Of a stretch of 64,000 bases of DNA, positions 12,676 to 26,015 are shown in pieces (the first letter of the stretch is position 1; each line of letters starts with the position of its first letter). This stretch comes from an uncultured Lachnospiraceae bacterium. Its GTDB lineage: Bacteria > Bacillota > Clostridia > Lachnospirales > Lachnospiraceae. The DNA lies in NCBI GenBank assembly GCA_902789735.1, contig CADAOZ010000002.1:62001-126000 (forward strand), read 5' to 3'. The notes under the pieces were generated by a model. That model did not search any database, was not told where the DNA came from, and was given only the letters and a program-made list of their open reading frames with translations. A program made the position numbers and the translations under genes.

Positions 12676-12735
12676 GCATGGCTGTCTGCCTTTTATTTGC
12701 CTGCGGCATGGCTGTCTGCGCTTTATTTGCCTGCG
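12676..12735. repeat. 30-bp tandem duplication at the 3' end of the symporter gene
   Basis: The last codons of the symporter gene, including its stop, are repeated just downstream with a period of 30 bp (12676-12705 and 12706-12735, two mismatches by eye). Read in the gene frame, the unit encodes ADSHAAGK followed by a stop, so the duplication sits mostly after the stop and does not change the protein. It probably arose by slippage. Confidence 0.7.
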
Positions 12736-14267
12736 GCATGGACCTCATCATAGATCTTCTGGATCTCGCGGTCGGGCTCGGGCGTAGCCAGGCTGACGAT
12801 CACGTTGACGATCAGAGAAAGGATGAAAGCCGGAAGCAGCTCATAAATGGACAGGATTCCACCCATAGGAGCAATCAGGAACTTCCAGATGAATACCATG
12901 GCGCCGCCTACGATCAGACCGGCCAGGGCACCGCTCTTATTGGACCGTTTCCAGAACAGGGACAGCAGCATGGCGGGACCGAACGTGGCGCCGAAGCCCG
13001 CCCAGGCAAAGGAAACGACACGGAATACGGAGCTGTTGGGATTCCAGGCCAGGACAATGGCGATAATGGCAATGCCGATAACGGTCGCTCTGGCGATGAT
13101 CATGTTCTTTCTGGCATCCAACTTGATACCCAGGAAATCCTGCATCAGGTCCTGGGATACGGAGGAAGCAGCCGCCAGCAGCTGGGAATCGGCAGTGGAC
13201 ATGGTCGCCGCCAGGATACCAGCCAGGATCACGCCTGCCATCAGGGCAAAGAAGAAACCGTGCTGGCTCATCAGGTCAGCCATTTTGATGATGATGGTCT
13301 CGGAATCAGAGCTGGTCTCCAGCAGGGGAATTCGGCCGGCCAGGGAAACACTGTAGCCGATGATACCGATCAGAATGGCCACGCCCATGCTGATCGCGCA
13401 CCAGACGGCCGCTATACGGCGGGACAGGACCAGTTCCTTCTCGTCACGGATGCCCATGAAACGGAGCAGGATGTGGGGCATACCGAAGTAGCCAAGGCCC
13501 CAGGCCAGGGTGGAGACGATCGGCAGGAAGCCGAAGGAACCCGCAGTCCCGTCCGCCCAGTTGTAACCCTGGGTAATATTCAGGTAGCCGGGAAGCTCTT
13601 TGGCGTTGGCAATGACCACATCCATGCCGCCCGCCTGACGGATTCCGAAAAATACGACCACTACAAGGGCGATGGACATGAAAATACTCTGGATCAGGTC
13701 CGTTGTGGATACGGCCAGGAATCCGCCAAGGGATGTATAGGAAACAATGATGACTGCGCCCACGATCATGGCCAGATGATATTCCACGCCGAACAGGCTG
13801 TTGAACAGGGTACCTACAGCCTTGAAGCCGGATGCGGTATAAGGAATAAAGAAAATCAGGATGATCAGAGCGGCGACCAGGGAAATACGATGCTGTTTAT
13901 CGCCGTAACGGTTGGAAAAGTATTCCGGGATCGTAAAGGCGCCCAGCCTCTCGGAATAACGGCGAAGCAGGCGGGAGACCAGCAGGAAGTTCAGATAAGT
14001 GCCCACAGCAAGACCGATGGCAGTCCATGTGACCTCCGCCAGGCCGGCGATATAGGCCAGTCCGGGCAGACCCATCAGCAGGTAGCTGCTCATGTCGGAG
14101 GCCTCCGCGCTCATGGCGGTGACCAGAGGGCCCAGGGAACGGCCGCCGATATAGAAGCCGTCGGAAGTATCCGCCGCGCCCTGCCGGTTAAAGATGACGC
14201 CGATCATCAGCATGGCGAACAGATAGGCAGCGATAGTTACAATGATCAGAATTTGTGCGGTTGTCAT
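12723..14267 (-). CDS. Sodium:solute symporter, PutP-like (SSF family)
   Basis: Na+-coupled importer of the SSF family in the cytoplasmic membrane, most like sodium/proline symporter PutP. It has 514 residues and about 13 membrane helices. N-terminal features include GFYIGGRSLGPLVTAMSAEASDMSSYLLMGLPG, where the conserved Ser/Asp of the Na+ site and the MGLPG turn fall; here it is read in two parts, GGRSLGPLVTAMSAEASDMS and SYLLMGLPG. AGGAGAG precedes the ATG. It lies downstream of a tetR gene but is separated from it by a large hairpin, so control by that regulator is only possible. Proline is the best guess for substrate. Confidence 0.88.
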   Translation of the reverse strand: MTTAQILIIVTIAAYLFAMLMIGVIFNRQGAADTSDGFYIGGRSLGPLVTAMSAEASDMSSYLLMGLPGLAYIAGLAEVTWTAIGLAVGTYLNFLLVSRLLRRYSERLGAFTIPEYFSNRYGDKQHRISLVAALIILIFFIPYTASGFKAVGTLFNSLFGVEYHLAMIVGAVIIVSYTSLGGFLAVSTTDLIQSIFMSIALVVVVFFGIRQAGGMDVVIANAKELPGYLNITQGYNWADGTAGSFGFLPIVSTLAWGLGYFGMPHILLRFMGIRDEKELVLSRRIAAVWCAISMGVAILIGIIGYSVSLAGRIPLLETSSDSETIIIKMADLMSQHGFFFALMAGVILAGILAATMSTADSQLLAAASSVSQDLMQDFLGIKLDARKNMIIARATVIGIAIIAIVLAWNPNSSVFRVVSFAWAGFGATFGPAMLLSLFWKRSNKSGALAGLIVGGAMVFIWKFLIAPMGGILSIYELLPAFILSLIVNVIVSLATPEPDREIQKIYDEVHAAGK

Positions 14268-14444: not shown

Positions 14445-15029
14445 TTACCCTCTGAACCGTTCCAGAAAGCCGGGCGTCATCCGGTCGGTATAGGCGACCA
14501 GAGAATACTCGCCGCCGCACAGACACCAGTCATACAGCAGGGCCCTTTCCCAGAGGGCATAGGCCTTGACGACTTCATTCTCGCTGTAGGCTGCGGATAT
14601 GGTCCCGGCCCGTCTGCCTTCGGCGGCGATCCGGCGCAGCAGGCGGAAATAGGTCCTGTTCCGGTCCAGCAGATGTTTTTCATTCTGGGCCAGCAGCTGG
14701 GAGGACAGCAGCCTTGTCAGCAGGTCCAGAGAAATGCTGTCCTCGATCATGACAAACAGGGCGTGATTCAGATAGATCATCCGCTCGATGGCATCCATGG
14801 AAGGATCCAGCTCCGTCCGGAGCGATTCATATTTCTCATCAAAGACATAGGCCAGTGTACCCAGCAGGGCATCCTTGCCCTCGAAGTAATGATAGAAGGA
14901 TCCCCGGGAGGTCTGGGAGGCGTTCACGATATCCTCAATGGTGGTTTCCTCATATCCGTTTTCATAAAACAGCTTCCAGGCCGCGGAAATGATCCTGCCG
15001 CGGGTATTGCGCGTATTCTTTTTGGGCAT
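14445..15029 (-). CDS. TetR/AcrR family transcriptional regulator
   Basis: DNA-binding repressor-type protein, 194 residues. The N-terminal helix-turn-helix is clear (TTIEDIVNASQTSRGSFYHYF at about residues 30-50, read as IEDIVNASQTSRGSFYHYF). The C-terminal ligand-binding half is not diagnostic. The ATG at 15029 follows GGAG by 6 nt; an upstream GTG at 15047 is less likely. It has its own promoter at 15102-15130. Its target may be the downstream symporter, but no shared operator was found. Confidence 0.88.
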   Translation of the reverse strand: MPKKNTRNTRGRIISAAWKLFYENGYEETTIEDIVNASQTSRGSFYHYFEGKDALLGTLAYVFDEKYESLRTELDPSMDAIERMIYLNHALFVMIEDSISLDLLTRLLSSQLLAQNEKHLLDRNRTYFRLLRRIAAEGRRAGTISAAYSENEVVKAYALWERALLYDWCLCGGEYSLVAYTDRMTPGFLERFRG

Positions 15030-15101
15030 GTCAGACTCCTTTGTCACTTAGTCCTCTCCCGCAGGCAGCCTAAGGTCCGCGGGTTCCCCTGTATCGCAAA
15101 C

Positions 15102-17571: not shown

Positions 17572-19206
17572 TCAGGACATATTCTGGCGTTCGACCAGTC
17601 TCTCGCTGCAGTAGATCTCCCGGATTTTGGGCTTGTCGATCTTGCCGGTGGCATTGCGGATGACCTTGTCAAAGAAGATCTTGCGGGGCCGCTTATAGCG
17701 GGGCAGGTCGATGCAGAAGCGGTTGACATCCTCTTCGGTCAGTTCCATCCCCTCCTTGACCTGAATCACGGCCGCCACGATTTCACCCAGACGCTCATGG
17801 GGATAACCAATGACCGCCACATCATGGATCTTGTCATTACGCATCAGGAAGTTCTCGATCTGGACCGGATAGAGGTTCTCACCGCCGGAGATGATAACGT
17901 CCTTCTTACGGTCGACCAGGAAGATGAAGCCGTCCTCATCCAGTCTGGCCATATCGCCGGTATGGAGCCAGCCGTCGATGATGGTCTCGGCGGTCGCTTC
18001 CGGATTCTTATAATACTCCAGCATGACGCCGGGGCCCTTGACACAGAGCTCACCGACTTCCCCATCCGCGACCGGCATATCCTGCTCATCCACGATCTTG
18101 GTCTTCCAGCCATAACCGGGAATGCCGATGGCGCCGACCTTGTGGACATTCTCCATGCCCAGATGGACACAGCCGGGACCGGTGGATTCAGACAGGCCGT
18201 AGTTGGTGTCATATTTATGATGCGGGAAGTACTTGAGCCAGCGGCGGATCAGGCTGGGCGGAATGGGCTGGGCACCGATATGCATCAGGCGCCACTGACT
18301 GAGCTTGTAATCCTCCATTTTGAGTTTTCCGGAATCCAGGGCCGCCAGAATATCCTGGGCCCAGGGCACCAGCAGCCAGACGATCGTACAGCCTTCATTA
18401 GAGACTGCACTGAAAATAGCTTCGGGAGAATTTCCCTTGAGCAGGACTGCCCGGCTGCCTGTGTACAGGGAGCCGAACCAGTGCATCTTGGCGCCCGTAT
18501 GATAGAGGGGCGGAATGCACAGGAAGGTATCCTTGCGGGTGGTTTCATGATGGATGGCCTCCATGCGGGCTGACTGCATCAGAGCTGTATGGTTATGCAG
18601 GATGGCCTTGGGGAAACCTGTCGTACCTGAGGAAAAATAAATAGCAGCCTCATCTTTGTCCTCGACCAGAATCCTGGGCGCAGTAGAAGATGCGTTGGAA
18701 GCCATACGATAGTAATCATCCGCATAGGAAGGACACTGGTCTCCTACGTAGAAAAGCAGGGTATTCTTCCGGATATGACTGATAATATTCTCGATCCGGC
18801 CGATAAATTCGGGGCCGTAGAAAAGAACATCCGAGTCAGAAGCGTCCAGGCAGTAACGGATCTCATCCGCGTCAAAACGGAAGTTCATGGGAACGGCAAT
18901 GGCGCCGGTCTTCATGATACCGAAATAAATGGGCAGCCATTCCAGACAGTTCATCAGCAGAATTGCGCACTTCTGTCCCTTGCGGATTCCCCGCTCAATC
19001 AGCATGTTTGCGACTCTGTTGGCCTTTTCATCAAAAACCGACCAGGTAATGGATCTCCTGTAAAAGGAAGTAGACGTGGGCTGGATCAGCTCATATTCCT
19101 TCCAGGTAACTCTCTGTTCCTCCCGGATTTCCGGATTGATCTCTACCAGGGCGATCTCTTCCCCGTAGAGCTTACTGTTTCTCTCCAGTAAATCTGTAAT
19201 CGGCAT
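17572..19206 (-). CDS. AMP-dependent acyl-CoA synthetase/ligase
   Basis: Adenylate-forming enzyme that activates a carboxylic acid with ATP and joins it to CoA. It has 544 residues. Core motifs are YFSSGTTGFPKA (A3, about residue 190), NYGLSESTGPG (A5), GWLHTGDMARLDEDGF (A7), LVDRKKDVIISGGENLYP (A8) and the A10 lysine in ATGKIDKPK. It is divergent from iorA with a strong promoter, so an aryl- or other organic acid substrate is plausible, but the sequence alone does not fix it. An 8-nt-spaced AAGGGGAAAAG-like Shine-Dalgarno lies before the ATG. Confidence 0.85.
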   Translation of the reverse strand: MPITDLLERNSKLYGEEIALVEINPEIREEQRVTWKEYELIQPTSTSFYRRSITWSVFDEKANRVANMLIERGIRKGQKCAILLMNCLEWLPIYFGIMKTGAIAVPMNFRFDADEIRYCLDASDSDVLFYGPEFIGRIENIISHIRKNTLLFYVGDQCPSYADDYYRMASNASSTAPRILVEDKDEAAIYFSSGTTGFPKAILHNHTALMQSARMEAIHHETTRKDTFLCIPPLYHTGAKMHWFGSLYTGSRAVLLKGNSPEAIFSAVSNEGCTIVWLLVPWAQDILAALDSGKLKMEDYKLSQWRLMHIGAQPIPPSLIRRWLKYFPHHKYDTNYGLSESTGPGCVHLGMENVHKVGAIGIPGYGWKTKIVDEQDMPVADGEVGELCVKGPGVMLEYYKNPEATAETIIDGWLHTGDMARLDEDGFIFLVDRKKDVIISGGENLYPVQIENFLMRNDKIHDVAVIGYPHERLGEIVAAVIQVKEGMELTEEDVNRFCIDLPRYKRPRKIFFDKVIRNATGKIDKPKIREIYCSERLVERQNMS

Positions 19207-19295
19207 TTCTTTTCCCCTTCCCTGTTATATATTTTGCGGAGGAACAGCCTTCTGATACAGGCTGTCTGTAATTTTGCAATTTAAACCGCTAAAGT

Positions 19296-19324
19296 AGCAT
19301 ACCCCTTTTAAGCAGGATTGTCAA
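19296..19324 (-). promoter_or_regulatory. Promoter of the acyl-CoA ligase gene
   Basis: Minus strand: consensus TTGACA (19319-19324), 17-bp spacer, TATGCT (19296-19301). The 5' leader then carries a stem ACAGCCT/AGGCTGT near 19245-19266. The promoter is back-to-back with that of iorA. Confidence 0.8.
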
Positions 19325-19405: not shown

Positions 19406-21157
19406 ATGACTAACACAAACAAACAGCTCTTGTTGGGCAACAAGGCTGTAGCCCGCGGTCTGTACGAAGCCGGCGTATGTTTTATATCCAGCTATCCCGG
19501 CACCCCCAGTACAGAAGTCACTGAAGAAGCAGTGAAGTACGATGACATCTATTGCGAATGGGCTCCCAATGAAAAGGTAGCCATGGAAGCGGCCTTCGGC
19601 GCCTGTCTGGCCGGCCGCCGTTCTTTCTGCGCGCAGAAACACGTAGGCCTCAATGTCGCGGCTGATCCCCTCTATACTATGTCCTATACCGGTGTGAACG
19701 CGGGTATGGTCATTTGCGTAGCGGATGATGCCGGCATGCATTCCTCTCAGAACGAGCAGGACAGCCGTCACCACGCCATTGCCGCCAAGGTTCCCATGCT
19801 GGAGCCTTCGGATTCCGCCGAAGCGCTGGAGTTTACCAAAACCGCTTACCAGATTTCAGAGCAGTTCGACACACCCGTCCTGCTGAAAATGTGCACCAGG
19901 GTCGCGCATTCCCAGTCGCTGGCCCCGATTGGAGAACGGACCGTACCGGACCGTCCCTATGAAAAGAATATCGGCAAGTACGTCATGATGCCCGGCAATG
20001 CCAAAAGGCGTCATCCCATCGTTGAGGAGCGGACCCGTCTGCTGACCGCCTATGCCGAGACCACCCCCCTGAACCGGGTCGAAATGGGCGGCACAGAGAT
20101 CGGTATTATTACCGCCTCCACCTCCTATCAGTATGTAAAAGAAGTCTTTGGCGATACTGTCAGCATCCTGAAGCTGGGTATGGCCAATCCCCTCCCCGTG
20201 GACCTGATCCGCAGTTTCGCGGCCAAAGTGGATAAACTGTACGTCGTGGAAGAACTGGATCCCATCATCGAGAATCATGTCCGCGCCCTGGGCATTCCGG
20301 TCACCGGCAAGGAGATCCTGCCCCTGGTCGATGAATTCTCCCAGAATCTGATCGCGGAAGCCTTCGGGCAGAAAAAGGAAAGCGCTTACTCCATTGCGGA
20401 CGCCATTCCGGCCCGTCCTCCGGTCATGTGCGCCGGCTGTCCCCACAGGGGCCTCTTCTATACACTGAAGAAGAATAAGTGCACTGTCCTGGGCGATATC
20501 GGCTGTTATACGCTGGGTGCCGTTCCTCCGCTGGGCGCCATTGAAATGACCCTCTGCATGGGCGCTTCCATCGGCGCGCTGCACGGCTTCAACAAGGTAC
20601 GCGGCAGCGAAAGCGAAGGAAAGACAGTCGCTGTCATCGGCGATTCCACCTTTATGCATTCCGGCATGACCGGCCTGGCCAATGTGGCCTATAACCAGTC
20701 CAACTCGACCATTATCATCGTAGACAACTCCATTACCGGCATGACCGGCCACCAGCAGAATCCCACCACCGGCTACAATATCAAAGGCGATCCGGCAGGG
20801 AAGATCGATCTGGAAGCCCTCTGCCGGGCCATGGGCTTTGAAAGGGTCTCTGTGGTAGATCCCTATGACCTGGAGGAATGTGACCGCGTCCTGAAACAGG
20901 AGCTGGCAGCTCCGGCGCCTTCCGTCATCATCTCCAGACGTCCCTGCGCCCTGCTCAAATATGTCAGGCACAACCCGCCGCTCCGGGTCAATACGGACAA
21001 GTGCGTGGGATGTAAATCCTGCATGCGTGTCGGCTGTCCCGCCATCTCCATCAGGAACGGCAAAGCGCACATCGACAACACCCTCTGCGTGGGATGTAAT
21101 GTCTGCAGCCAGCTGTGCCATTTCGGCGCGCTGGAAGACAGCGGAAAGGAGGCCTGA
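19406..21157 (+). CDS. iorA: Indolepyruvate:ferredoxin oxidoreductase alpha subunit
   Basis: Thiamine-diphosphate, iron-sulfur enzyme subunit that oxidises arylpyruvates (from Trp, Phe or Tyr) to aryl-acetyl-CoA, reducing ferredoxin in anaerobes. It has 583 residues from MTNTNKQLLLGNKAVARG. The N-terminal pyrimidine-binding part has SSYPGTPSTEVTEE, the ThDP part has GDIGCYTLGAVPPLGAIE and GDSTFMHSGMTGLANVAYNQ, and the C-terminus has two cysteine clusters, CVGCKSCMRVGCP and CVGCNVCSQLC, for 4Fe-4S centres. GAGGAGG lies ahead of the ATG. iorB follows after 2 bp. Confidence 0.95.
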   Translation: MTNTNKQLLLGNKAVARGLYEAGVCFISSYPGTPSTEVTEEAVKYDDIYCEWAPNEKVAMEAAFGACLAGRRSFCAQKHVGLNVAADPLYTMSYTGVNAGMVICVADDAGMHSSQNEQDSRHHAIAAKVPMLEPSDSAEALEFTKTAYQISEQFDTPVLLKMCTRVAHSQSLAPIGERTVPDRPYEKNIGKYVMMPGNAKRRHPIVEERTRLLTAYAETTPLNRVEMGGTEIGIITASTSYQYVKEVFGDTVSILKLGMANPLPVDLIRSFAAKVDKLYVVEELDPIIENHVRALGIPVTGKEILPLVDEFSQNLIAEAFGQKKESAYSIADAIPARPPVMCAGCPHRGLFYTLKKNKCTVLGDIGCYTLGAVPPLGAIEMTLCMGASIGALHGFNKVRGSESEGKTVAVIGDSTFMHSGMTGLANVAYNQSNSTIIIVDNSITGMTGHQQNPTTGYNIKGDPAGKIDLEALCRAMGFERVSVVDPYDLEECDRVLKQELAAPAPSVIISRRPCALLKYVRHNPPLRVNTDKCVGCKSCMRVGCPAISIRNGKAHIDNTLCVGCNVCSQLCHFGALEDSGKEA

Positions 21158-21159
21158 AT

Positions 21160-21732
21160 ATGGAGACAAAGAATATTATGATCGTCGGCGTCGGCGGACA
21201 GGGTTCTCTCCTGGCCAGCAAGCTGCTGGGCCACCTGCTCCTGTCCCAGGGCTATGATGTAAAAGTATCCGAGGTACACGGCATGTCCCAGCGGGGCGGC
21301 AGCGTTGTTACCTATGTCCGTTACGGTGACCAGGTCCATTCCCCCATCATTGACCGGGGCGAAGCGGATTTTATCGTATCCTTCGAGATCCTGGAGGCCG
21401 CCAGATGGCTCTCCTATCTCAAAAAGGACGGACAGATCGTGACCAACACCCAGATGATCGATCCTATGCCCGTCATTACCGGCGCGGCAGAGTATCCGCA
21501 GGATCTGGAAGCCAAGCTTAAGGCCAGCGGCGCCAGGGTAGATGCCCTGGACTGCCTGAAACTGGCGGAAGAAGCCGGATCCTCCAAGGCCGTCAATATC
21601 GTCCTGCTTGGCAGGCTCTCCCATTATTTCGACCTGCCTGAGGATGCATGGATGGCTTCCCTGGAAGCAAATGTACCTCCTAAATTCCTTGCAATGAACA
21701 AGAAGGCTTTTGCCCTCGGAAGGGATTACTGA
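21160..21732 (+). CDS. iorB: Indolepyruvate:ferredoxin oxidoreductase beta subunit
   Basis: Gamma-domain-type subunit that completes IorAB. It has 190 residues from METKNIMIVGVGGQGSLLAS, which is the conserved GVGGQG nucleotide/CoA-contact motif of 2-oxoacid oxidoreductase gamma domains, followed by EVHGMSQRGGSVVTYVRYG. The ATG lies 3 bp after the iorA stop, with AAGGAGG inside the end of iorA, so translation is coupled. Confidence 0.95.
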   Translation: METKNIMIVGVGGQGSLLASKLLGHLLLSQGYDVKVSEVHGMSQRGGSVVTYVRYGDQVHSPIIDRGEADFIVSFEILEAARWLSYLKKDGQIVTNTQMIDPMPVITGAAEYPQDLEAKLKASGARVDALDCLKLAEEAGSSKAVNIVLLGRLSHYFDLPEDAWMASLEANVPPKFLAMNKKAFALGRDY

Positions 21733-21778: not shown

Positions 21779-23080
21779 ATGGAAAAATATTTCCAGGAAT
21801 CCATTGAATGCGCGAGCCGTGACGAGATCATCGCCATTCAGAACGAGAAACTCGTAAAACAGGTACGGCATGTCTGGGACAACGTTCCCTACTACCGTAA
21901 AAAGATGGAAGCGAAGGGGGTCACACCCGATGATATCAAATCCATCGACGATCTGCACAAGCTGCCTTTTCTTTCCAAAAAGGATCTGCGGGAGGCCTAT
22001 CCCTATGGCCTGGTCGGCAAGCCCTTGAAGGACTGCGTGAGGATCCAGTCCACTTCCGGCACGACCGGCAAGCGTGTTGTCGCTTTCTATACCCAGCACG
22101 ATATTGATCTCTGGGAAGACTGCTGCGCCCGCGCCATCGTAGCGGCCGGCGGCAGCAAAGAGGATGTCTGCCAGATCTCCTATGGTTACGGCCTCTTCAC
22201 CGGCGGCCCCGGACTCAACGGCGGCTCCCACAAAGTCGGCTGCCTGACCGTCCCCACCAGTTCCGGCAACACAGACCGTCAGATCATGTTCATCCAGGAT
22301 CTGCAGGCTACGATCATCTGCTGTACTCCCAGCTACGCCGCTTTCCTGGGCGAGCGTATGAAGGAGATGGGATACGGTCCTGATGATATTCCCCTGAAGG
22401 CCGGTATCTTCGGCGCGGAAGCCTGGAGTGAGGAAATGCGCCAGGATATCCAGAAGACCATGGGCATCAAGGCCTATGATATCTACGGACTGACAGAGCT
22501 GTCCGGCCCCGGCGTGGCTTTTGAATGCTCCGCCCAGAAGGGCATGCATATCAACGAAGACCACTTCATCGCCGAGATCATCGATCCTGAGACGGAAGAA
22601 GTCCTTCCGGAAGGCAGCCAGGGTGAGCTGGTATTTACCGCCATCGACAAGGAAGCTTTCCCGATGATCCGCTACCGTACCAGAGATATCTGTAAGCTGA
22701 CCCGTGAGAAATGCTCCTGCGGCCGTACCCATGTCCGTATGGCCAAGCCTATGGGCCGCTCCGATGACATGCTGATCATCCGCGGCGTCAACGTATTCCC
22801 CAGCCAGATCGAGACTGTGCTGCTCAATCATGGCTATGCCGCCAACTACCAGATCATCGTTGACCGTAAGAACAATTCCGATACCCTGGATGTCCAGGTC
22901 GAGATGACCCCTGAAATGTTCACTGATAACGTCGGTGAGATCGCCGAGAACCAGAAGCAGCTCGTTGACGGCCTCAAGTCCATGCTGGGCATCAAGGCCA
23001 ATGTCACACTGGTCGCGCCCAAGTCCATCGCCCGCAGCGAAGGCAAGGCCGTCCGTGTCATCGACAAGAGAAAGATCTGA
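21779..23080 (+). CDS. paaK: Phenylacetate-CoA ligase
   Basis: AMP-forming ligase joining phenylacetate (or another arylacetate) to CoA. It has 433 residues. Motifs are STSGTTGKRVVAFYT (P-loop-like, about residue 90), AEAWSEEMR, YDIYGLTELSGPGVAFEC and RYRTRDIC, with DMLIIRGVNVFPSQIE near the C-terminus, all typical of PaaK. GGGAGG precedes the ATG by about 11 nt. It is cotranscribed with iorAB and the ACT gene, an association common in anaerobic Firmicutes. There it may work with IOR, either conserving CoA-ester energy or scavenging arylacetate (inference). Confidence 0.93.
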   Translation: MEKYFQESIECASRDEIIAIQNEKLVKQVRHVWDNVPYYRKKMEAKGVTPDDIKSIDDLHKLPFLSKKDLREAYPYGLVGKPLKDCVRIQSTSGTTGKRVVAFYTQHDIDLWEDCCARAIVAAGGSKEDVCQISYGYGLFTGGPGLNGGSHKVGCLTVPTSSGNTDRQIMFIQDLQATIICCTPSYAAFLGERMKEMGYGPDDIPLKAGIFGAEAWSEEMRQDIQKTMGIKAYDIYGLTELSGPGVAFECSAQKGMHINEDHFIAEIIDPETEEVLPEGSQGELVFTAIDKEAFPMIRYRTRDICKLTREKCSCGRTHVRMAKPMGRSDDMLIIRGVNVFPSQIETVLLNHGYAANYQIIVDRKNNSDTLDVQVEMTPEMFTDNVGEIAENQKQLVDGLKSMLGIKANVTLVAPKSIARSEGKAVRVIDKRKI

Positions 23081-23095
23081 GACGGGAGGAAAAAT

Positions 23096-23530
23096 ATGAG
23101 CATAAAGCAGATTTCCGTATTTCTTGAGAACAAGCCCGGTACCCTGAAGAAAATGACCGGCGTCCTGGCCGCCAAAAAGGTCGACATGCGCGCCCTGTCC
23201 CTGGCGGAGACCAAGGACTTCGGGATTGCCCGCATCATCGTGGATGACGTTTTTGAAGCAGTCAATATCCTGAAGGACGCGGACTTTATTGCCAAACTCA
23301 CCTCTGTCCTGGCTGTTAAGATCCCTGATGTCCCCGGCGGACTGGACCAGCTGCTCTCCATCTTCTCCGAAGCGGAGGTCAACATTGAGTATATGTACGC
23401 CTTCCTGGGCGGCAGCGATGTCAAGAGCGCTTATATGATCTTCCGTGTCGCCGATACCAAAGGCGCGGAAGCCCGCCTGACCAAGAAGGGCCTGCGTGTC
23501 CTGACACAGGAAGATATCGCCAATATCTGA
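23096..23530 (+). CDS. Tandem ACT-domain protein
   Basis: Small cytoplasmic protein of 144 residues built from two ACT domains (about 3-70 and 72-140), with IKQISVFLENKPGTLKKMTG and DVPGGLDQLLSIFSEAEVN as the two ligand-loop starts. ACT domains bind amino acids. It is 15 bp after paaK and the last gene of the iorAB-paaK unit, so a role as an aromatic amino acid sensor or activator is likely but not shown. No enzyme domain is present. Confidence 0.9.
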   Translation: MSIKQISVFLENKPGTLKKMTGVLAAKKVDMRALSLAETKDFGIARIIVDDVFEAVNILKDADFIAKLTSVLAVKIPDVPGGLDQLLSIFSEAEVNIEYMYAFLGGSDVKSAYMIFRVADTKGAEARLTKKGLRVLTQEDIANI

Positions 23531-23731: not shown

Positions 23732-25279
23732 TTACTGCTCGTCGTCACCCAGCATATGACTCCTGGTAACGATGACCTTCTGGTCGTAGCAGGCGAAGGC
23801 GTCGTCAACGACCTTCTTATTGGGCTTGGGCGTGAACAGGGACACGACCGGGACAATGACCAGGCCGGCGATCATGCAGAAAGCGCCCGCGTTGATCGGA
23901 GACTGCAGCAGGACCGGAAAGCTGGGCCTTACAAGCATGTTGGCCAGCATGACGACCGTCGAAAACAGGAAACTGCACCAGCAGCTGATCTTGGTCGCGC
24001 CTTTCCAGTAGAGACCATAGAGGAACGGAGCCAGGAAAGCGCCGGCCAGCGCGCCCCATGAAACACCCATCAGCTGAGCGATAAAGGTAACGTTGGACTT
24101 GTACTGGATAATGGCGATGACCACGGAAAGGGCAACGAATACGACGATCAGGCATCGCATAATAAATACCTGTTTCTTCTCATCCATCTCCCTGATGATA
24201 TAGCCCTTGAGCAGGTCCAGTGTCAGCGTAGAGCTGGAGGTCAGGACCAGCGAAGACAGGGTGGACATGGAAGCGGAAAGGACCAGGATGACCACAATGG
24301 CGATCAGGATATCCGGCAGGCCGGACAGCATGGTCGGAATGACAGAGTCAAAGCCGTTGGCCGCGATGTCAATTTTGTCGGAAAAGAGTCTGCCGAAGCC
24401 GCCCAGGAAATAACAGCCGCCCGCTACTATCAGTGAAAAGAAGGTGGATATCACGGTACCTGTGGAGATGGATTTCTCACTCTTGATCGCATAGAACTTC
24501 TGGACCATCTGAGGAAGGCCCCATGTACCCAGGGATGTCAGGAGCACGACGCCCAGCAGATTAAGGGGATCGGGTCCAAGGAAAGAGGCAAACACACCGG
24601 GTGTGGTGGATACCGTCTCATCCGAGACTCTTGCCAGCCCGTCCAGGGCCGCCAGCAGGCCGCCCTGGCTCTTCAGGACCGCCAGAATGACCGCTGTAAT
24701 ACCGAATAACATAACAATACCCTGCACGAAATCATTGATCGCGGTGGCCATATAGCCGCCGGCAACGACATAAATACCGGTCAGGACCGCCATTACAATG
24801 ACACAGACTGTATAGTCAACACTGAACGCCATACCGAATAATCTGGAAAGGCCGTTATACAGGGAGGCTGTATAAGGAATCAGGAAAATAAAGGTAATGA
24901 CAGAGGCAGCGATCTTGAGGGATGAACTGCCGAATCTGGCCTCAAAGAACTGGGGCATGGTAGCGGAATCCAGATGCTGGGTCATGATGCGGGTTCTTCT
25001 GCCCAGAATGACCCAGGCCAGGAGAGATCCCAGGATGGTGTTGCCGATTCCTGCCCAGGTGGCCGCGATGCCGTATTTCCATCCGAACTGTCCCGCGTAG
25101 CCTACAAATACAACGGCGGAGAAATAGGATGTACCGTACGCGAAAGCTGTCAGCCAGGGACCGACAGAACGTCCGCCCAGGACAAAACCGTTTACATCTG
25201 TGGAATTCTTTCTGCAATAGAATCCGATCCCGATCATGACTGCGAAAAAGATGACCAGCATCAAAACCTTGATTACCAT
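23732..25279 (-). CDS. Sodium:solute symporter (SSF family), likely amino acid importer
   Basis: Na+-coupled membrane importer with 515 residues and about 13 helices. VNGFVLGGRSVGPWLTAFAY with GTSYFSAVVFVGYAG marks the SSF N-terminal sodium-site region. It is only distantly like the PutP-like protein at 12.7 kb. It is convergent with the iorAB operon and divergent from the TrpR-like yerC, and its promoter shares an unusual 29-bp element with that of yerC. The substrate is not defined by sequence; aromatic amino acids or a related acid would fit the neighbourhood. Confidence 0.87.
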   Translation of the reverse strand: MVIKVLMLVIFFAVMIGIGFYCRKNSTDVNGFVLGGRSVGPWLTAFAYGTSYFSAVVFVGYAGQFGWKYGIAATWAGIGNTILGSLLAWVILGRRTRIMTQHLDSATMPQFFEARFGSSSLKIAASVITFIFLIPYTASLYNGLSRLFGMAFSVDYTVCVIVMAVLTGIYVVAGGYMATAINDFVQGIVMLFGITAVILAVLKSQGGLLAALDGLARVSDETVSTTPGVFASFLGPDPLNLLGVVLLTSLGTWGLPQMVQKFYAIKSEKSISTGTVISTFFSLIVAGGCYFLGGFGRLFSDKIDIAANGFDSVIPTMLSGLPDILIAIVVILVLSASMSTLSSLVLTSSSTLTLDLLKGYIIREMDEKKQVFIMRCLIVVFVALSVVIAIIQYKSNVTFIAQLMGVSWGALAGAFLAPFLYGLYWKGATKISCWCSFLFSTVVMLANMLVRPSFPVLLQSPINAGAFCMIAGLVIVPVVSLFTPKPNKKVVDDAFACYDQKVIVTRSHMLGDDEQ

Positions 25280-25322
25280 AATAATATCCTCCCTGCGGTT
25301 AAATTTAGCGCGTTCATGCTTA

Positions 25323-25351
25323 AACGCTTTACAGTGTTAAATTATAAGAGA
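25323..25351. promoter_or_regulatory. Copy A of the element shared with the yerC promoter
   Basis: 29 bp beginning AACGCTTTACAGTGTTAAAT that match copy B (25561-25589) at 24 of 29 positions in the same orientation. It covers the -10 box and likely start site of the symporter promoter, a good position for repression. Confidence 0.6.
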
Positions 25352-25369
25352 TACTTTCAGGAAATTCAA
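25341..25369 (-). promoter_or_regulatory. Promoter of the symporter gene
   Basis: Minus strand: TTGAAT (25364-25369), 17-bp spacer, consensus TATAAT (25341-25346). About 60 bp ahead of the ATG. Confidence 0.8.
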
Positions 25370-25436
25370 GCATAAATTCTCATGATCAAAGAAAAATTTT
25401 TATGTCTCTTTTTTGCCTTGGTTTCCGTTCATATCC

Positions 25437-25469
25437 GCTGTTTCATTGGATTCAGGCATTTGAAACAGC
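25437..25469. repeat. Inverted repeat in the symporter-yerC intergenic region
   Basis: A 9-bp perfect inverted repeat, GCTGTTTCA/TGAAACAGC, with a 15-bp gap, midway between the divergent promoters. No T-run follows. The rest of the region 25380-25550 shows nothing else I can name. Confidence 0.4.
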
Positions 25470-25552
25470 CTAACCAGGCCGTGTTGCCGGAAAAAGAATC
25501 ATAAAAACCCTCTGTTTGTTCTCTGTATTCACATAAAAAAACCGTTCCCGCA

Positions 25553-25589
25553 TTGCGGTCAGCGCTTTAAAGTATTAAAATATAAAAGA
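25553..25589 (+). promoter_or_regulatory. Promoter of yerC containing copy B of the shared element
   Basis: TTGCGG (25553-25558), 17-bp spacer, TAAAAT (25576-25581). Copy B (25561-25589, beginning AGCGCTTTAAAGTATTAAAA) fills the spacer and -10 box. If YerC binds it, the gene would be autoregulated. Confidence 0.6.
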
Positions 25590-25694: not shown

Positions 25695-26015
25695 ATGAAA
25701 AGAAATATCAACAGGGGAACTGTCGAAAAGCTTTTTAAGGCTGTGCTGAGCCTTGAGAACATGGAGGAGTGTTATCTGTTCTTTGAAGATATCTGTACTA
25801 TCAATGAATTAAATTCCCTGGCCCAGCGTTTTGACGTCGGAACACGGCTGCTGGACGGCCAGACCTATCAGACGATCTCAGAAGCCACCTCCGCTTCCAC
25901 TGCCACGATCAGCCGCGTAGGACGCCTGCTGGGAGACGGCCGGGAAGGTATCGAGATGGCTGCGGCCCGCATTAAGGAACAGGAGAAGAAAGAAGCAGAT
26001 CATGATGACGCCTGA
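25695..26015 (+). CDS. yerC: TrpR-related protein, YerC/YecD family
   Basis: Small DNA-binding protein related to the Trp repressor, 106 residues from MKRNINRGTVEKLFKAVLSL. The helix-turn-helix is at about residues 60-85 (QTYQTISEATSASTATISRV, then GRLLGDGREG). The ATG at 25695 follows GGAGGG; the longer frame lacks a ribosome-binding site and is not used. It sits between two aromatic-metabolism-like loci. TrpR senses tryptophan, but the ligand of YerC-type proteins is not established. Confidence 0.88.
   Translation: MKRNINRGTVEKLFKAVLSLENMEECYLFFEDICTINELNSLAQRFDVGTRLLDGQTYQTISEATSASTATISRVGRLLGDGREGIEMAAARIKEQEKKEADHDDA

Follow-up and report, generated by a model that had tools for sequence, protein, structure and literature searches.

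This locus raises the question of why an SSF symporter gene and a yerC-like regulatory gene carry a common 29-base element in their promoters, and which protein might read it. We analysed the whole 64-kb stretch of DNA (hereafter the window) together with the 2.51-Mb genome to which it belongs (G000). We propose that the two copies of the element, A and B, and a third box in front of a nearby acyl-CoA ligase gene are probably operators of the HisR family, and that the yerC paralog of the window encodes the likeliest repressor, probably with an effector amino acid that is not histidine. The boxes, their positions and conservation, the paralogy and the residue changes are seen in the sequences, whereas binding, repression, which of two proteins binds and the effector are inferred. 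The paralog is called hisR2 here, after the name that PMC9413887 gives to other HisR paralogs.

Table 1. Features of the hisR2/symporter/ior locus, in window coordinates
Feature	Position	Strand	Details
Acyl-CoA ligase gene, AMP-forming	17572..19206	-	best NCBIfam match PRK06187, below cut-off; divergent from iorA
Third HisR-type box	19277..19296		core 19280-19293; minus strand TACTTTA-GCGGTT-TAAATTG
Acyl-CoA ligase promoter	19296..19324	-	TTGACA-17-TATGCT; third box at -10/start side; promoter scan
iorA, indolepyruvate ferredoxin oxidoreductase alpha	19406..21157	+	TIGR03336, 704.6 bits (cut-off 650.9)
iorB	21160..21732	+	NF005325, 271.3 bits (cut-off 230)
paaK-like aryl-CoA ligase gene	21779..23080	+	TIGR02155, 521.7 bits (below cut-off 646.3)
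ACT-domain pair protein gene	23096..23530	+	PF19571, 92.2 bits (cut-off 23.5)
SSF sodium:solute symporter gene	23732..25279	-	PF00474, 191.4 bits
Half-site array, 8-bp-phased	25302..25341	-	TTAACAC TGTAAAGC GTTTAAGC ATGAACGC GCTAAATT; extends copy A into the transcript start
Copy A, 29-mer	25323..25351		box A, 20-bp HisR-type box, 25325-25344; on -10/start region of symporter promoter
Core of copy A	25328-25341		TTTA-CAGTGT-TAAA; core search of window
Symporter promoter	25341..25369	-	TTGAAT-17-TATAAT; TATAAT at 25346-25341; promoter scan
Putative hisR2 promoter	25553..25581	+	TTGCGG-17-TAAAAT; TAAAAT at 25576-25581, inside box B; by eye
Copy B, 29-mer	25561..25589		box B, HisR-type, 25563-25582
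Core of copy B	25566-25579		TTTA-AAGTAT-TAAA; core search of window
hisR2, yerC paralog	25695..26015	+	TIGR02531, 105.4 bits (cut-off 42.2); PF01371, 79.5 bits (cut-off 27)

A shared element at two promoters

Copies A and B lie in the same orientation and are identical at 24 of 29 bases, just as the earlier note had counted by eye, and when the 418-bp gap was shuffled 1000 times with its dinucleotides preserved, direct 29-mer pairs agreed at 21 bases at best. When the pattern common to both copies (26 positions, any base being allowed where the copies differ) was searched at up to three mismatches, the genome returned these two places only. The note had placed copy A over the -10 box and start of the symporter promoter, and the -10 element does lie inside this copy; the promoter scan of the region gave two promoter-like sites against 0.9 in shuffles, which is weak alone. 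Copy B had been assigned to the spacer of the yerC promoter, most of which it covers, but it covers the -10 element as well and is not limited to the spacer. The promoter scan of the region did not report this hisR2 promoter, the -35 element of which is weak (three of six positions), and the spacer/-10 layout of copy B recurs in canonical hisR promoters.

Both copies contain the core TTTA-N6-TAAA. It occurs exactly three times in the window (at 25328, 25566 and 19280) against 0.27 expected, a count that none of 100 shuffles reached, and all three cores sit on promoters of the hisR2/symporter/ior cluster. The third, which the earlier note had overlooked, takes a position on the ligase promoter parallel to that of copy A on the symporter promoter; the scan of the ligase promoter gave two sites against 0.6 in shuffles, little above chance. 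Boxes A and B each deviate from the 20-bp HisR consensus at three positions and the third box at two, the differences lying in the flanks. Among 26 stretches upstream of iorA, the exact core was present in two only, those of the window and of genome G284.

Genome-wide, neither the exact core (35 places vs 71 for the reversed pattern) nor the consensus at up to three mismatches (49 vs 75) was enriched, and such counts were rejected as proof of an operator because the reversed patterns are more frequent. The pattern YRCTTTANNNNNNTAAAWTR has five exact places, three of them within the cluster; this count was also rejected as evidence, being circular because the pattern was composed from those very sites.

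Since copies A and B are both A/T-rich and both include -10 elements, one may ask whether two promoter cores merely resemble each other. The shuffles fall short in both 29-mer match and core count, however, a third site stands at a third promoter, the boxes have been conserved while their flanks diverged (see below), and a published operator has the identical core (PMC9413887). We consider a mere likeness very improbable.

Match to the HisR operator

The YerC of B. subtilis is the HisR of PMC9413887, which gives cacTTTAnnnnnnTAAAgtg as the common operator of HisR in Firmicutes and reports that R. gnavus HisR, the one member with known histidine-dependent binding, binds DNA in vitro with histidine and does not bind without it. 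The core of copies A and B matches this operator, and the premise of the earlier note, that neither operator nor ligand has been established for YerC-type proteins, is therefore wrong. Its suggestion that the element is a YerC-family operator, placed to repress both the symporter gene and yerC, is supported by sequence comparison.

The system described here resembles HisR of Firmicutes (PMC9413887) in family, recognition helix, operator core and the site at the promoter of its own gene. Unlike the latter, it comprises a second, divergent copy changed at near-invariant positions, and it would act on a symporter gene and an aromatic cluster instead of on his genes. Regulons of HisR have been published, as have HisR paralogs that serve new targets: in Paenibacillus, Carnobacterium and Enterococcus, HisR2 paralogs adjoin tdcP-tdcA-tyrT, and a HisR paralog of Oscillibacter adjoins hutH-hisT (PMC9413887). 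Both these genes and hisR2 of the window stand beside amino-acid genes outside histidine biosynthesis, albeit in different gene clusters. The main text of that paper mentions neither symporters nor indolepyruvate, and the literature searched, subscription papers and supplements lying outside the search, gave no match for the HisR2 paralog, its target set or the phased arrays.

Conservation of the boxes

We found the HisR2 paralog in five genomes, G000, G233 (same contig as L001), G218 (L002), G219 (L003) and G284 (L004); its frequency in the genus sample was 4/61. Eight further genomes in a set of 200 have two TIGR02531 matches each. The earlier note had named a lack of conservation in orthologous yerC or symporter promoters as a refutation of its reading; the element is conserved in both kinds of promoter, except that those of hisR2 in G218 and G219 have no core within 150 bp.

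When G000 is compared with G233, identity over the gap is 71%, with agreement at 20 of 20 positions in box A and 19 of 20 in box B; this pair is modest evidence alone because 18 and 63 of 399 windows, respectively, are equally good. The ligase box of G233 (L215) has the exact core. G284, in which the gene order is the same as in the window (hisR2-SSF-ACT-paaK-iorB-iorA-ligase), has boxes at all three promoters. Its ligase box (L136) retains the exact core and agrees with that of G000 at 19 of 20 positions in a gap of 56% identity (6 of 180 windows as good), and its symporter box agrees at 16 of 20 with one mismatch in the core (5 of 399 windows as good). The exact core upstream of its hisR2 is unpaired in the global alignment because the gaps differ in length (418 vs 166 bp). 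In G218 and G219, hisR2 and the symporter gene are adjacent, tail to tail; no close iorA was found in either (best 51%), and no exact core lies within 150 bp upstream of their hisR2. The single exact core within 18 kb in G219 is at the symporter. As raw counts, the exact core occurs within 150 bp in 49 of 83 distinct hisR/hisR2 upstream stretches (68 at up to one mismatch), and among 23 symporter upstream stretches it is exact in 13, has one mismatch in seven and is lacking in three (G204, G216 and G269).

HisR2 and the canonical HisR

The YerC of the window is not the single HisR ortholog of its genome. Two TrpR-family genes are present in G000, the canonical hisR being found at G000:C7, and the protein encoded in the window is a paralog in a separate clade. 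The HisR2 clade (four rows) received support of 100/99 on a long stem (5.86); we take only the unity of HisR2 from this tree because it has few columns, an unsettled bootstrap and long branches. The nearest solved chains are 3frw, 3g1c and 3kor. At 11 positions the four HisR2 rows lack the residue common to at least 80% of 91 HisR rows, and these include two tyrosines that are present in 90 and 91 of the HisR rows and absent from HisR2. The recognition helix ASTATISRV is unchanged: in every column, 84 or more of the 92 remaining rows (one of them a HisR2 row) have its residue. As the helix is kept and other conserved residues are changed, it is plausible that HisR2 recognizes the same operator as HisR with another effector. 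The two would then be a natural pair, alike in operator and changed in residues, for amino-acid choice in TrpR-family proteins.

The his operon of G000, which starts with a 397-aa gene that we take to be hisZ, followed by hisG (TIGR00070), is preceded by the box CGCTTTA-TCGTGG-TAAAGCG. The canonical hisR promoter of G000 has no box at up to one mismatch; this gene lies at a contig end (L114), and its promoter has the right half-site GTGTTAAAAT only.

Canonical HisR with histidine might itself control the symporter gene, perhaps the whole cluster, in which case the symporter would import histidine or a related imidazole, and HisR2 would be redundant or interfering on the same operators. The left side CGCTTTA, common to the his-operon box and boxes A and B, is in keeping with such control. 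So are 13 of the 25 genomes searched (G202, G204, G206, G208, G209, G210, G212, G216, G217, G224, G226, G232 and G235), in which a single TrpR-family gene, that for HisR, is combined with a phased or boxed symporter promoter, and control of the symporter by HisR2 alone is disfavoured because of these genomes. G213, outside the promoter comparison, has a single TrpR-family gene as well; in G207, G223 and G228, all TrpR-family matches beyond HisR fall below the cut-off, and G200 possesses the array, although a search of its 72%-complete assembly gave no TrpR-family gene. Nevertheless, HisR2 adjoins the boxes in all five genomes that carry it, and ior, paaK and the ligase gene are not histidine genes. 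Moreover, a core separates an ABC amino-acid transporter gene from a hisC-like gene. This is the usual type of HisR transport target, and a symporter is therefore not required in that role. We regard control by canonical HisR as rather unlikely.

We prefer HisR2, a fast-evolving paralog with the recognition helix kept and other conserved positions altered, as the likeliest repressor. Its dimer with a bound amino acid would occupy TTTA-N6-TAAA at the -10/start region and block three promoters, those of the SSF symporter gene, the acyl-CoA ligase gene next to iorAB-paaK and the repressor's own gene; additional dimers could align along the 8-bp-phased array of the symporter promoter. Given the altered positions, the effector is probably not histidine and perhaps an aromatic amino acid. 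An uncharacterised SSF symporter and the ior-paaK cluster would thereby be linked to a known repressor family, with three predicted operators testable by one binding assay.

A phased array at the symporter promoter

The half-site array, which had also escaped the earlier note, belongs to a phasing that recurs at symporter promoters of the genus, including those of genomes in which only canonical HisR was found. In 16 orthologous promoters, self-identity was 0.462 at lag 8 versus 0.262 in shuffles (z 12.7), followed by lags 16 (z 7.8) and 24 (z 5.4), all z values being inflated by the common ancestry of the promoters. Lesser peaks, with z 4.8 at lag 15 and z 4.6 at lag 30, mean that not every array is strictly 8-phased. 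The set comprised 16 of 18 promoters, G269, which lacks an array, and G202, which is close to G212, being excluded, without those found later (G218, G207, G210, G228 and G217), and each stretch was begun by eye at the -10 element. Taken singly, eight promoters had a phasing that none of 500 shuffles reached. The phasing was weak or not significant in five others (shuffles as high out of 500: G000, 41; G233, 49; G284, 31; G235, 22; G224, 117), and the array of G000 alone is not significant. The promoters of G204 and G216 have no core, yet are phased (0/500).

Two adjacent CTTTAAAG units in the 8-bp frame yield TTTA-N6-TAAA, which allows the symporter arrays to be interpreted as series of HisR boxes that overlap one another. 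This suggests that some targets may use chains of phased half-sites rather than single palindromes. E. coli TrpR, which has its fold family in common with HisR2, binds as tandem dimers on overlapping half-sites. Its half-sites are about 8 bp apart according to PMC9413887, a distance resembling the phasing seen here; the operator TGTAcTnGTnnACnAgTACA does not match copies A and B when both are read against the published motif.

A leader RNA or riboswitch was rejected as the meaning of the array, as the symporter and iorA promoters of seven loci gave no Rfam match at the gathering score. A cobalamin riboswitch (95.3 bits) was noticed near the symporter gene of G212 (L107:149-349, minus strand). 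In G204 (L214, on G204:C92), the genes for the symporter, ligase, iorA and iorB follow a phased array in one row, without HisR2.

The effector and further candidate targets

The ior-paaK neighbourhood and a core at trpB2, a TrpB-like gene (NF009057 and TIGR01415 over cut-off), favour an aromatic effector. The trpB2 promoters of G000 and G233 carry the exact core in the spacer/-10 region of TTGACA-17-TAAAGT, and G284 has it at a different spot. Against this, the exact core is also found at trpB2 in four genomes without HisR2 (G202, G212, G223 and G232), where its right half belongs to the -10 element, and it is missing upstream of trpB2 in G218 and G219. In 13 of 15 genomes, trpB2 stands behind a T-box-like leader, as judged from the leader core sequence; Rfam at the gathering score matched it in two of five loci (G233 and G284) and not in G000 or G212. 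We read its specifier as UGG, and the box before trpB2 may be a lead to tryptophan. The trpB2 genes of G219 (L232) and G218 (L264) lack the T-box-like leader core and have a short leader instead, with a HisR-like right half-site GTGTGTTAAAGT at the position of the -10 element. Histidine is favoured by the fact that most symporter genomes offer canonical HisR as the sole candidate. On balance, an aromatic effector has about an even chance, a histidine-like one is possible at clearly less than that, and any other is improbable.

Indoleacetate and phenylacetate may both serve rumen cultures as precursors of aromatic amino acids. Phenylalanine can be made from phenylacetate in such cultures (PMC7356843), which is compatible with a biosynthetic role. 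It is attractive to speculate, though we rather doubt it, that in this Lachnospiraceae group a duplicated histidine repressor turned into an aromatic, tryptophan-type repressor with its operator unchanged, re-inventing the job of TrpR within the HisR family, and that, via cooperative 8-bp-phased arrays, it governs how arylacetic acids are taken up and activated with CoA in the synthesis of aromatic amino acids.

The gene for chorismate mutase-shikimate kinase in G000 has a one-mismatch core and phased CTTTAAAC-TTTAATGC-ATAAAAGC-GTTAATTC repeats upstream (G000:C1:175178-175197, L098). This is a weak lead at most because the two other orthologs read, those of G233 and G223, have no such site at this position.

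Other genes of the locus

The nearest equivalog of the symporter is PutP (197.8 bits, far under the cut-off of 515.5). A second, more PutP-like SSF symporter (487 bits, same cut-off) is encoded at 12723-14267 of the window (minus strand), adjoined by a TetR-type regulator gene (14445-15047, minus strand). A defence protein was rejected, PADLOC giving no match. The acyl-CoA ligase gene adjoins iorA in G284 and G204 too. In G285, a member of the Oscillospiraceae, the sole TrpR-family gene over the cut-off adjoins iorA-iorB-paaK-ACT (L017:1-3421), a second and perhaps separate link of HisR to this kind of cluster.
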